Assembly (NCBI RefSeq): GCF_018612875.1 | Contig: NZ_JAGGRI010000038.1 | Span: 1-64,000, forward strand | Reading direction: 5' to 3' | Origin: Lysobacter sp. ISL-50 | GTDB taxonomy: Bacteria > Pseudomonadota > Gammaproteobacteria > Xanthomonadales > Xanthomonadaceae | DNA: 64,000 nucleotides | Shown: positions 44,878 through 64,000 of the stretch, piece by piece | How the letters are laid out: each line of letters opens with the position of its first letter | Numbering within the stretch: the first letter of the stretch is position 1 | The notes under the pieces: model-generated | The model's input: the letters and a program-made list of their open reading frames with translations, nothing else | The model's database searches: none | Told to the model about the DNA's origin: nothing | Position numbers and translations under genes: made by a program

Positions 44878-47800
44878 GTGAATACACGCGATCGAAACAC
44901 GTCCTCCGTGCAGACGGAAGATTCGGAATTGTCTGCAGCTTCCATCGCGCAATCGCTGTCCGCGCAGGTCGCGACGCTGAAGTTCTGCGCCGAAGGTCAC
45001 TTCGACCGCGCGCTGTCGCTACGGTGGGACGCGGCATTGCTGCGCGAACTGGAGTCGCTGGAGCGCGCTCATCGATCGAGCCGCGGCAGTGTCGTCGCGG
45101 CGGCTGGCGCGGCGGTGTTGGCGAAGCTCAGCGAGCACGACAGCCTGTTGATCGGCGTGTCGCTGGCGCGCGGCGAACACGCGCAGCGCGACGGCGTCGC
45201 CGGCCGCTTCGTCGATGCGCGCAGCTTGCCGATCGATGCGACGCAGTCCGTCGGCCAATGGCTGGCCGACGTGGGCCGGTTGGTTGCGATGGATGCGGGC
45301 GAGGCCGCGGACAGTGGCGAAATCTCGCTGTTTTTCGCGCGTGGGGAAACGTTCGAGCTGCATTTGCAGCTGAGCGCCGCCGATGACGGCATGGTCGGCC
45401 GGCTGAGCTATGCCTCGACGCTGTTCGATCCGGCCATGGCCCAGCGTTGCGCCGGCTATCTGCGGCGCGCGATCGGGGCGATGGCGGCCGACGATGCTCA
45501 GCCGGTGGATCGCATCGATCTGCTCGATGCCGACGAACGCCGGTTGGTGCTGAGCGATCTCAATCAGACCCAGGCCGAGTATCCGCAGGCGACTTGCATC
45601 CATGAGCTGTTCGAAGCGCAGGTCGCGCGAGCGCCGGATGCGACGGCGGTGGTGCATGGCGGCGAATCGCTGAGCTATGCCGAGCTGGATCGTCAGGCCA
45701 ATCGACTCGCGAATCATCTGATCGGCCTGGGCGTCAAGCCCGATGACCGCGTCGGGATCAGCATCGAACGCGGTCTGTCGATGGTGGTGGGCGTGTTCGG
45801 CGTGCTCAAGGCCGGCGGCGCCTACGTGCCGCTGGACCCGGTGTATCCGCGCGATCGATTGGCGCACATGCTCGCCGACAGCGCGCCGATGGCGGTGTTG
45901 ACCTCGGCTGCCGCGCGCGAGTCGTTGCCGGACGTCGTGGCGGCGCCATTGGTCGATCTGGTTGATTCGAATGCGGCGTGGCGCAGCGAATCTTCCGATG
46001 CGCCGGTTGTCGGCGGCCTGACGTCGGCTCATCTCGCCTATCTGATCTACACCTCCGGTTCGACCGGCACGCCGAAGGGCGTGATGATCGAACATCGCAA
46101 TGCGGTGAACTTCCTGGTATGGGCGAAAGAGTCGTTCGAGGCATCGGTGCTGGCCAAGACCCTGTTCTCGACCTCGCTGAACTTCGATCTGTCGATCTAC
46201 GAATGCTTCGCGCCGCTGATCGTCGGCGGTTGCACGGAAGTCGTCGATGATGCGCTGGCGCTGCAAGAGGGCGAACACGACATCCGCCTGATCAACACCG
46301 TGCCGTCGGCGCTGCAAGCGCTGCTGGACGCGCAGGCCATCGATCCCAAGGTCGAAGTCGTCAACGTCGCCGGCGAAGCCCTGAAGCGCGAGCTCGCCGA
46401 GCGCCTGTTCGCGCAGACCCCGGTGCAGCGCCTGTGCAATCTGTACGGCCCGACCGAAACCACGACCTATTCGACCTGGGTCGCGATGGACCGCGACAGC
46501 GGCTTCGCCCCGCATATCGGCCGTCCGCTGGCGAACACGCAGGTTTACCTGCTCGACCGCCACTTGCAGCCGGTGCCGATGGGCGCCAGTGGCGAGTTGT
46601 ACATCGGCGGTGCCGGCGTGGCCCGCGGTTACTTCAACCGCGATGAGCTGACGGCCGAACGCTTCCTGGCCAATCCGTTCATCGACGGCGAGCGGATGTA
46701 CAAGACCGGCGACCTGGGTCGCTGGCGTGCCGATGGCAATATCGAGTACCTGGGCCGCAACGATTTCCAGGTCAAGATCCGCGGCTTCCGCATCGAGCTG
46801 GGCGAGATCGAATCGCGCTTGGTCGAACATGAAGCCGTGCGCGACGCGGTGGTGCTCGCGCGCGAGGACCAGCCGGGCGACAAGCGCCTGGTGGCCTACG
46901 TCGTCACTGAAGACGGCGCAGCCATGGACGCGGATGCATTGCGCTCCCACCTGAGCGCGACCCTGCCCGACTACATGCTGCCGTCGGCCTACCTGCACCT
47001 GCATAGCCTGCCGCGCACCTCCAACGGCAAGCTCGATCGCAAGGCGCTGCCGGCACCCGACGCCGACGCCTACCGCCGCCGCGACTACGAAGCTCCGCAG
47101 GGCGAGACCGAAACCCTGCTGGCGCAGTTGTGGGCCGATGTGCTCAAGCTCGACCGCGTCGGCCGCAACGACCATTTCTTCGAACTCGGCGGGCACTCGC
47201 TGCTCGCGGTCACCTCGCTCTCGCGTCTGCGCCGCGCGCTGTCGGTCGATGTCTCGCTGCGCGATCTGTTCGCGCGGCCGGTGTTGTCGGAACTGGCCGC
47301 GCATCTGCAAGGCCAAGCGCGCAGCGAACAGCAGCCGATTCTGCCGGCGCCGCGCGATCAGGAACTTCCGCTGTCGTATGCGCAGCAGCGCCTGTGGTTC
47401 CTGGCCCAGGTCGATGGCGCCAGCGGCTCGTATCACGTCCCGCTGGCCCTGCGCCTGCGCGGCCGGCTCGACCGCGACGCCCTGCAGCGCACGCTCGACC
47501 GCATCGTGTGGCGACACGAAGCACTGCGCACAACGTTCGTGCGCGAGCACGAGCAGACCGTGCAGCGCATCGCCGCGCCGGAACTGGGCTTCGCGCTGCA
47601 ACACCGCGACCTGCGCGGCGATGTCGAATCGCTGCAGCGGCATCTGCACGCGGAAGCCGAAGCACCGTTCGATCTGGAGCGCGGCCCGCTGATTCGCGGG
47701 CAACTGCTGCAGACCGCGGACGACGAACACGTGCTGGTCGTAACCATGCACCACACCGTGTCCGACGGTTGGTCGAAGGGCCTGCTGATCCGCGAACTGG

Positions 47801-50800
47801 ATGCGTTGTACAGCGCTTACGCGCGCGGCCAGGACGATCCGCTGCCGCCGCTGCCGATCCAGTACGCCGATTACGCCGTGTGGCAACGCCAGTGGATGCG
47901 CGGCGACCAGTTGTCCCGGCAGAGCGCGTACTGGCGCAACGCATTGGACGGCGCGCCGGTGCTGCTGGAATTGCCGACCGACCGCCCGCGCCCGGCGCAG
48001 CCGGTGTTCGTCGGCGCCAGCGTCGCGGTCGAACTGGACGCCGCGCTGACCCAAAGCCTGAAGCGGCTGAGCCAGCGTCACGGCATCACCCTCTACATGA
48101 CCGTTCTGAGCGCGTGGATGGCGGTGTTGTCGCGCCTGTCCGGTCAGGAGGATGTCGTGGTCGGCAGCGTGGTGGCCAATCGCACGCGCACCGAGATCGA
48201 GGATCTGATCGGCTTCTTCGTCAATACGCAGGCGTTGCGCGCCAACATCGCCGGTACCGTGGGCGAGCTGTTGCAGCAGGTCAAGGGCCGCGTGCTGGAT
48301 GCGCAGGAACACCAGGACCTGCCGTTCGAACAAGTGGTGGAGATCGTCAATCCGCCGCGCAGCCTGTCGCACGCGCCGATTTTCCAGGTGCTGCTGGCCT
48401 GGCAGAACACCGACGCGGGCGAGTTGGCGTTGCCGGATCTGAGCGCGACCCCGATCGAGATGCCCTACGATCTGGCCAAGCTCGATCTCGGCCTGGAACT
48501 GTCGGAAGTCGAAGACCGCATCGCCGGCCGCCTGGAATATGCGACCGCGCTGTTCGACCGCGCCACCGCCGAGCGTTACGTGGGGTATCTGCGCCGGATG
48601 CTGCAGGCGCTGGCGAGCGACGATGCGCAGCCGGTGGATCGCATCGATCTGCTCGATGCCGACGAACGCCGGTTGGTGCTGAGCGATCTCAATCAGACCC
48701 AGGCTGAGTATCCGCACGCCGCCTGCATCCATGAGCTGTTCCAAGCGCAGGTCGCGCGGACGCCGGATGCGACAGCGGTGGTGCATGGCGGCGAATCGCT
48801 GAGCTATGCCGAGCTGGATCGTCAGGCCAATCGACTCGCGAATCATTTGATCGGCCTGGGCGTCAAGCCCGATGACCGGGTCGGCATCAGCATCGAACGC
48901 GGTCTGTCGATGGTGGTGGGCGTGTTCGGCGTGCTCAAGGCCGGGGGCGCCTATGTGCCGTTGGACCCGGTGTACCCGCGCGATCGATTGGCGCACATGC
49001 TCGCCGACAGCGCGCCGATGGCGGTGTTGACCTCGGCTGCTGCGCGCGAGTCGTTGCCGGACGTCGTGGCGGCGCCATTGGTCGATCTGGTTGATTCGAA
49101 TGCGGCGTGGCGGAGTGAATCGGCGGAAGCGCCGGCCGTCAGCGGCCTGACGTCGGCTCATCTGGCATACCTGATCTACACCTCCGGTTCAACCGGCACG
49201 CCCAAAGGCGTGATGATCGAACACCGCAATGCGGTGAACTTCCTGGTATGGGCGAAGGAGTCGTTCGAGGCATCGGTGCTGGCCAAGACCCTGTTCTCGA
49301 CCTCGCTGAACTTCGATCTGTCGATCTACGAATGCTTCGCCCCGCTGATCGTCGGCGGCTGCACCGAAGTCGTCGATGATGCGTTGTCGTTGCAAGAGGG
49401 CGAACACGACATCCGCCTGATCAACACCGTGCCGTCGGCGCTGCAAGCGCTGCTGGACGCGCAGGCCATCGACCCCAAGGTTGAAGTCGTCAACGTTGCC
49501 GGCGAAGCACTCAAGCGCGAACTTGCCGAACGTCTGTTCATGCAGGCCCCAGTGCAGCGCTTGTGCAACTTGTACGGCCCGACCGAAACCACCACCTATT
49601 CGACCTGGGTGGCGATGGACCGCGACAGCGGCTTTGCTCCACATATCGGCCGGCCGCTGGCGAACACGCAGGTTTACCTGCTCGACCGCCACTTGCAGCC
49701 GGTGCCGATGGGCGCCAGCGGCGAGTTGTACATCGGCGGCGCGGGTGTGGCGCGCGGTTATTTCAATCGCGATGAGCTGACCGCGGAACGCTTCCTCCCC
49801 AATCCGTTCATCGACGGCGAACGGATGTACAAGACCGGCGACCTGGGTCGCTGGCGCGCCGACGGCAATATCGAATACCTGGGCCGCAACGACTTCCAGG
49901 TCAAGATCCGTGGCTTCCGTATCGAACTGGGCGAGATCGAATCGCGCTTGGTCGAACACGAAGCGGTGCGCGACGCCGTGGTACTGGCGCGCGAAGATCA
50001 GCCGGGCGACAAGCGCCTGGTGGCCTACGTCGTCACTGAAGACGGCGCAGCCATGGACGCGGATGCATTGCGCTCCCACCTGAGCGCAACGCTGCCCGAC
50101 TACATGCTGCCGTCGGCCTACCTGCACCTGCAGAGCTTGCCGCGCACCTCCAACGGAAAACTCGACCGCAAGGCCCTGCCGGCGCCCGATGCCGATGCCT
50201 ACCGCCGCCGCGACTACGAAGCGCCGTTGACCGAAACCGAAACCGCGCTGGCGCAGATCTGGGCCGGCGTGCTCAAGCTCGACCAAGTCGGCCGCCACGA
50301 TCATTTCTTCGAACTCGGCGGCCACTCGCTGCTGGCGGTGACGCTACTGTCGCGCGTGCGCAGCGCGATGGCGGTTGAAGTCTCGCTGAAGGATCTGTTC
50401 GCCCGGCCGGTGCTGTCGGAACTGGTCGCGCATCTGCAAGGCCAGGCGCGCAGCGAACAGCAGCCGATCCTGCCGGCGCCGCGCGATCAGGAACTGCCGC
50501 TGTCGTATGCGCAGCAGCGCCTGTGGTTCCTGGCCCAGGTCGATGGCGGCAGCGAGGCGTATCACATTCCGCTGGCCCTGCGCCTGCGCGGCGCGCTCGA
50601 TCGCGCCGCCCTGCAGCGCGCGCTCGACCGCATCGTATGGCGGCACGAAGTGCTGCGGACCACGTTCCTGCGCGATCGGGAACAGACCGTGCAGCGCATC
50701 GCCCCGGCCGATATCGGCTTCTCGCTGCAGCGCGCGGATCTGCGCGGCGCGGACGCGGCAGCGGTGCGCCGGCGCCTGGACGAAGAGGCCGAGCGACCCT

Positions 50801-63953: not shown

Positions 63954-64000
63954 GTGGTCTTTAACTCGCTCACGTTCCTGGTGTTTTTCGCCGTGGTGCT
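63954..64000 (+). CDS. Start of an MBOAT-family O-acyltransferase (cut by window end)
   Basis: A GTG at 63954 has GGAGG six bases upstream. The 15 visible residues (MVFNSLTFLVFFAVV) match the typical first helix of MBOAT proteins such as AlgI (MxFNS-x-FxFxF). The family transfers acyl groups from carrier molecules in the membrane. Only the N-terminus is visible, so the call is tentative. Confidence 0.5.
   Translation, partial: MVFNSLTFLVFFAVV

Follow-up and report, generated by a model that had tools for sequence, protein, structure and literature searches.

A Lysobacter peptide synthetase operon in which a DUF6875 protein and a kynurenine 3-monooxygenase-like enzyme most likely make the residue loaded by module 4

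In Lysobacter sp. ISL-50, a plus-strand operon encodes a five-module nonribosomal peptide synthetase (NRPS), a major facilitator superfamily (MFS) exporter, a DUF6875 protein, a flavoenzyme resembling kynurenine 3-monooxygenase (KMO) and, after these, genes for acyltransferases and an efflux pump. We found it in the window, a 64,000-nucleotide stretch at the start of a 181-kb contig (NZ_JAGGRI010000038.1); the operon starts at 44878 and extends to about 72983, so that the window end falls inside it. We think it likely that these genes form a single operon for making a nonribosomal peptide, in which the DUF6875 and KMO-like enzymes form a private supply of an oxidised amino acid for module 4 of the synthetase. 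The module 4 residue most likely comes from this pair, because the pair co-occurs with the code DAGDMGHVC of the module 4 adenylation (A) domain and because the two enzymes are naturally fused in a relative. This link between pair and module is new relative to the original prediction, an earlier reading of the same DNA from its letters, and our literature search showed, among the papers listed, no published description of the gene set, or of a conserved two-enzyme supply unit in NRPS systems.

The co-occurrence emerged from two scans, with A-domain codes taken from alignment. At the family level, DUF6875 was present in 22 of 297 genomes, at 23 loci whose surroundings were drawn to up to 20 kb each (more for some), and the MFS, DUF6875 and KMO-like genes stood together in 21 of the 23; among 200 order-level genomes, DUF6875 was found only in that of ISL-50 itself. 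The wider scan returned 107 DUF6875 relatives, of which 80 were kept, several of them from the same genomes as the family-level draw. A KMO-like neighbour was present at 37 of these 80 loci, in three phyla (Pseudomonadota, Acidobacteriota and Actinomycetota). When the window was added to the 37, the fetched stretch contained DAGDMGHVC at 34 of 38 loci; among the four misses, L123 carries the code on the same contig at a distance of about 34 kb and L141 carries the variant DAGDSGHVC on its contig, and L086 and L101 are weighed below. Correlations of distances were 0.91, 0.94 and 0.95 (n = 34), pointing to joint inheritance. In the ISL-50 genome, where 24 of the 26 A-domain loci given were readable, the code occurs only in module 4. 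As a control, four Lysobacter genomes that lack DUF6875 gave 207 A-domain matches; 27 of the 30 best-scoring were readable and none of these 27 carries DAGDMGHVC, the best listed identity to module 4, short fragments aside, being 48%. The remaining modules vary between cluster types, which leaves the A domain of the module 4 type as the shared part.

Loci in which DUF6875 stands without a KMO match (43 of the 80) mostly show other codes, so that presence of the KMO-like gene coincides with another type of A domain. Three of them are special cases: L102, described below as G189 C3, has DAGDMGHVC, and L085 and L088 are contig ends, the genome of L088 carrying the code on another contig. Among the other 40, 25 loci, all cyanobacterial and lying among L103–L149, have an A domain of the type DPW(A/G/T)(F/S/T)G(C/V)ID, one has two other codes and in 14 no A domain was read. 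The cyanobacterial loci possibly represent a second class of building block. The two enzymes are also physically joined in nature: a single frame of 736 amino acids in L. psychrotolerans (L040:9595-11805) contains both DUF6875 and the KMO-like protein.

Beyond the window, the operon continues with genes for a membrane-bound O-acyltransferase (MBOAT), an SGNH-like protein, an AT3 acyltransferase fused to SGNH, and AcrA- and AcrB-like proteins (Table 1). Two further genomes (G241 and G189 C3) show the same order from NRPS to AcrB, except that the second has lost the KMO gene; these two loci and the window are referred to as type A, defined by one giant NRPS and the MBOAT-to-AcrB block. The MBOAT protein aligns with DltB, its WHG stretch included, and scores 144 bits against the DltB model TIGR04091, whose cut-off is 375; the kept WHG stretch recalls the Dlt system, but no DltA, DltC or DltD genes were seen beside the MBOAT gene. 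The AT3 and SGNH domains of the fused protein (P0007) are above the Pfam cut-offs, and the AcrA- and AcrB-like proteins pass general resistance-nodulation-division (RND) models. For the SGNH-like protein (P0006), Pfam gave no match, and no solved structure was significantly related to it by sequence; we take its label from its GDSR and WSH motifs. Upstream of this block, the exporter that had been called EntS-like is indeed an MFS protein, for which that name is loose: it scores 85.7 bits against the EntS model NF007792 (cut-off 324), and the 206.3 bits from a general H+ antiporter model also fall below the cut-off there, 319.6.

Whether this block belongs to the peptide pathway is where an alternative fares best. 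The MBOAT, SGNH, AT3 and pump genes might be a surface-glycan acylation and efflux unit that simply follows the NRPS operon, a reading we consider unlikely although it has an observation in its favour: at all eight other Lysobacteraceae loci fetched, drawn from 25 genomes in which the SGNH-like protein had any match, the MBOAT–SGNH pair (52–55% and 35–48% identity) occurs with no NRPS, AT3, pump or other operon relatives nearby. Against it, the whole block from NRPS to AcrB keeps the same order in two other genomes, even in the one that lost KMO, its genes are close-set and the MBOAT and SGNH frames overlap. Because the pair stands alone elsewhere, it was probably recruited into the operon, and its place in the gene order suggests that it acylates the peptide.

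The DUF6875 protein belongs to PF21780 by a wide margin (187 bits, cut-off 24.5), and Cys78 and His172 are invariant in 60 aligned DUF6875 proteins. In a recent report, the family, also called cytochrome P422, is described as binding heme and oxidising tryptophan, an example being ZigI of zigralone biosynthesis, and the one role given there for a DUF6875 gene is hydroxylation of a tryptophan-type residue at C-7 (PMC13307353). By analogy, the protein in the window would carry heme and act on tryptophan, and the product of the pair is probably a hydroxylated tryptophan. The window protein shares its Pfam family with ZigI, but its gene belongs to an NRPS operon and has a KMO-like neighbour as partner, whereas the zig gene list, in the accessible part of that source, names no such partner (PMC13307353). 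A sequence search against solved structures returned no significant match. In a structure model, the best solved fold match is AglA, a heme arginine hydroxylase of the YqcI/YcgG group whose heme is ligated by Cys44 (PMC12866846); by residue offset, Cys78 would fall about where Cys44 does. The two proteins may share a fold; they show no sequence-level match, and different substrates are expected.

Solved structures closest to the KMO-like enzyme are true KMOs (290 bits), and it is 37.8% identical to the P. fluorescens enzyme; against the VioC model NF053548 it scores 169 bits, where the cut-off is 760. The ISL-50 genome also encodes, on contig C13, a canonical KMO that is 57.5% identical to that of P. 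fluorescens and has the same residues at 17 of 17 pocket positions, and tryptophan 2,3-dioxygenase (TDO) is encoded elsewhere as well. With both present, the KMO-like enzyme reads as an extra paralogue, and a primary-metabolism role, which would have undone its earlier assignment to the cluster, is not borne out. In the window enzyme, 6 of the 17 pocket positions differ from canonical KMO, including L226H and H320Y. R84, Y98, N369 and Y404 are retained throughout the 38 cluster KMO-like proteins, but position 226 is always His and position 320 always Tyr or Phe, with positions and roles as in the KMO literature. We read this as an amino-acid head gripped as before and a changed ring: homology to KMO and the amino-acid clamp are common to both, whereas the canonical kynurenine-ring pocket is absent, the aryl end being altered in all 38.

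The same enzyme is the basis of a second alternative, that the product of the pair is a kynurenine derivative: the indole would be opened by the heme protein or by the host TDO, the KMO-like enzyme would hydroxylate the ring and module 4 would load (hydroxy)kynurenine. True KMOs as nearest solved relatives, the four retained clamp residues and a TDO in the genome all fit this scheme. The altered pocket does not, a canonical KMO is already at hand, and the DUF6875 role in print, in the part of that source available, is C-7 hydroxylation of a tryptophan-type residue (PMC13307353); we regard it as rather improbable. It is less probable still that DUF6875 and KMO act on a carrier-bound or released peptide instead of a free amino acid. 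Other NRPS systems do oxidise carrier-bound residues, and here the DUF6875 and KMO genes come after those for the NRPS and exporter, but the clamp for an amino acid is kept, and the pair tracks a single A-domain code, which selects a free amino acid, across clusters whose other modules differ by type.

Several observations weigh against the supply of module 4 by the pair. The genome of L101 has both enzymes, and no DAGDMGHVC domain was found in it, the best of 23 matches, the only one read, being 39% identical with a serine-like code. In L086 the code lies on a separate contig from the pair. The counts are not independent, because the loci are related, and the two scans have some genomes in common. 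Kynurenine as substrate of the KMO-like enzyme would also be compatible with the retained clamp. Type A relative G189 C3, a Lysobacteraceae metagenome-assembled genome, keeps beside its DUF6875 gene only a decayed stretch at the KMO site (L102:10700-11155, between DUF6875 and MBOAT), which aligns with the KMO C-terminus at a score of 75 (none of 300 block shuffles scored as high, the highest being 54); an intact KMO in a second cluster of that genome could serve both clusters. The match to AglA extends over some 150 residues, which superpose at about 4 Å and are 13% identical, and its Foldseek TM-scores are 0.36 and 0.39; because AglA acts on arginine, the fold does not point to tryptophan.

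On the supply reading, which we continue to favour, DUF6875 as a heme hydroxylase and then the KMO-like flavin monooxygenase would act on an aromatic amino acid in its free form, most likely converting L-tryptophan to a hydroxytryptophan and this to a twice-oxidised product; the order and the product of the two steps are inferred. Module 4 would load that product, alanine is the probable substrate of modules 1, 2 and 5 and a basic residue that of module 3, and the special residue may end up in the D configuration through the dual-looking condensation (C) domain of module 5. The MFS protein would then move the peptide into the periplasm, where the MBOAT–SGNH pair and the AT3–SGNH enzyme would probably acylate it before the AcrA/AcrB-like pump expels it. 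A bolder version, which we hold as doubtful, is a two-compartment pathway that joins a cytoplasmic heme and flavin pair making a new amino acid, a synthetase without thioesterase (TE), periplasmic MBOAT–SGNH/AT3–SGNH acylation and export by a dedicated AcrA/AcrB-like pump, the chain possibly being handed from the last carrier domain to the DltB-like MBOAT; the TE in a relative with the same MBOAT gene speaks against such a direct hand-over.

The supply reading yields a testable rule: in Pseudomonadota, Acidobacteriota and Actinomycetota, DUF6875 together with a KMO-like enzyme predicts an A domain with DAGDMGHVC. If true, it would tie a recently reported heme family to a building block, make many orphan clusters assignable at once and add one code to A-domain prediction, and the type A operon would represent nonribosomal peptide synthesis equipped with periplasmic acylation genes and an RND pump of its own.

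The synthetase frame is open over 5113 codons and consists of repeated C–A–peptidyl carrier protein modules. It holds five A domains and four full C domains, and the N-terminus keeps a remnant of a further C domain. Because the first module lacks a full C domain, an N-terminal acyl start is not expected. The A domains of modules 1, 2 and 5 are mutually 95–98% identical, a sign of recent copying, and their code DLYNNALTY resembles an alanine code of microcystin synthetase; these modules probably load alanine. The A domain of module 3 is 58% identical to the DVENIGAIN domain of an NRPS on contig C13 of the same genome, the best of five compared (the next 52%). If that domain holds the arginine position of lysobactin, as it could, arginine or ornithine would be a guess for module 3. 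The predicted order of alanine, alanine, basic residue, unknown residue and alanine is thus compatible with the codes, its alanine positions depending on the likeness to the microcystin code. The C13 genes (G000:C13:353046-388048) have A-domain codes reminiscent of lysobactin.

Module 5, C domain included, has solanimycin SolG (NF041803) as its best NCBIfam match (1081 bits, below the cut-off of 2200). The SolG C domain is described as dual clade and SolG is predicted to load serine, whereas module 5 of the window has an alanine-like code (PMC10204066). The earlier proposal of a dual C domain that makes the module 4 residue D has the HHLTSDH motif and the likeness to SolG on its side, with the SolG model score falling short; the domain looks dual, and the residue may for that reason end up D. 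No TE was seen in the synthetase, where the stretch past the last A domain matches only a carrier domain, or at the end of the G241 NRPS, while the G189 C3 NRPS has one, confirmed with Pfam (68.5 bits, cut-off 26.4). That the TE loss marks a dying synthetase and a decayed operon that makes nothing is very improbable given a 15-kb frame without a stop, an intact last carrier domain and downstream proteins 75–88% identical to those of G241.

The other 20 family-level loci (type B) have the MFS and DUF6875 genes, with a KMO-like gene in 19, the twentieth being a 3.8-kb contig. Clusters of this type, from Lysobacter, Rugamonas and Janthinobacterium, have the MFS, DUF6875 and KMO-like genes and DAGDMGHVC in common with the window. 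Eight type B clusters were read from end to end; their A domains come in the order DI(F/T/L)QITLVY, DILQ(L/F)G(L/V/M)VW (a glycine code) and DAGDMGHVC. Unlike the window NRPS, the type B synthetase ends in a thioester reductase: in G138 it consists of three genes, the last ending in this domain (Pfam), and BLAST found a match to this reductase in 33 of the 37 wider KMO loci. A further difference from the window is that the stretches fetched for the 20 loci gave no match to the MBOAT-to-AcrB block, MBOAT and AT3 included. We considered the MBOAT as a replacement for release by the reductase and rejected it, as the TE in G189 C3 speaks against it. In G089 (L035/L086), only the first two type B modules are in place; at L200:8810-13762 (G089/G463), an NRPS of one module carries DAGDMGHVC and matches the reductase weakly, with DUF6875 and KMO on another contig. 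Actinobacterial clusters (Salinispora, Saccharothrix and Amycolatopsis) have the same parts in another order, the KMO and DUF6875 genes preceding the NRPS and the MFS gene following it. Salinispora pacifica CNR114 has two such clusters (L142 and L155) on different contigs with nearly the same codes. The cluster was rightly called unassigned, but its core set is not unique, since it recurs at most family-level loci and in parts in other phyla.

Table 1. Genes and synthetase domains of the operon, in contig numbering
Feature	Position	Strand	Remarks
NRPS gene, five modules, without TE	44878–60135	+	GTG start at 44878; frame open further upstream (TTG at 44851)
C-domain remnant, N-terminal	45346–45543	+	profile positions 388–453 of 456
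A domain, module 1, DLYNNALTY	45598–47103	+	
A domain, module 2, DLYNNALTY	48727–50229	+	97.8% identical to module 1
A domain, module 3, DMENMGAVD	51871–53394	+	putative basic residue
A domain, module 4, DAGDMGHVC	55015–56604	+	domain accompanying DUF6875 and KMO-like enzyme
C domain, module 5, HHLTSDH	56953–58272	+	SolG-like
A domain, module 5, DLYNNALTY	58333–59829	+	95.2% identical to module 1
MFS exporter	60200–61531	+	start set by comparison with G241
22-codon open frame	61598–61666	+	stop overlaps DUF6875 start
DUF6875 protein, 267 aa	61663–62466	+	PF21780 match
KMO-like FAD monooxygenase, 468 aa	62463–63869	+	
MBOAT gene	63954–65375 (window holds 63954–64000)	+	GTG start behind GGAGG
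SGNH-like protein	65344–66540	+	outside window
AT3–SGNH acyltransferase	about 66604–68652	+	outside window
AcrA-like protein	68664–69833	+	outside window
AcrB-like protein	69849–72983	+	outside window

For the borders of the operon, frames from 20 kb in the window to 95 kb on the contig were compared with G241 (about 21 kb before and 11 kb after its operon) and G189 C3 (8.5 kb before and almost nothing after). Outside the NRPS-to-AcrB genes, the only matches were two overlapping frames at 21.5–23.7 kb, whose G241 counterparts are found on the opposite side of the operon. Because the G189 C3 sequence compared ends near the operon end, the right-hand border is set by G241 only. A sigma-70 promoter scan upstream of the operon found nothing.

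The five genes named in the original prediction, from the NRPS to the start of the MBOAT gene at the window end, were confirmed in place and strand. Of the two ATGA couplings it proposed, that between DUF6875 and KMO at 62463 is real, and that at the NRPS stop (60132) leads into a frame of just 23 codons and is not the MFS start. DUF6875 most likely starts at the position in Table 1 and not at the in-frame ATG at 61330 inside the MFS gene, and the MBOAT gene is uncoupled from the KMO-like stop. By eye, the 23-codon frame (60132–60203) is closed by the ATGA at the MFS start; it was not seen in G241 after the NRPS stop. The 22-codon frame ahead of DUF6875 has the same length, with Trp at codon 12, in all three type A loci and could be a coupling or tryptophan-sensing leader; among 43 of the 80 wider loci examined for a short coupled frame in this place, only two, both unlike it, were found besides L102. 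Downstream of the operon, at L009:14430-15370, head-to-tail copies of about 200 bases with inverted motifs of the type GGAGGGGCTTCAGCCCC were seen by eye.

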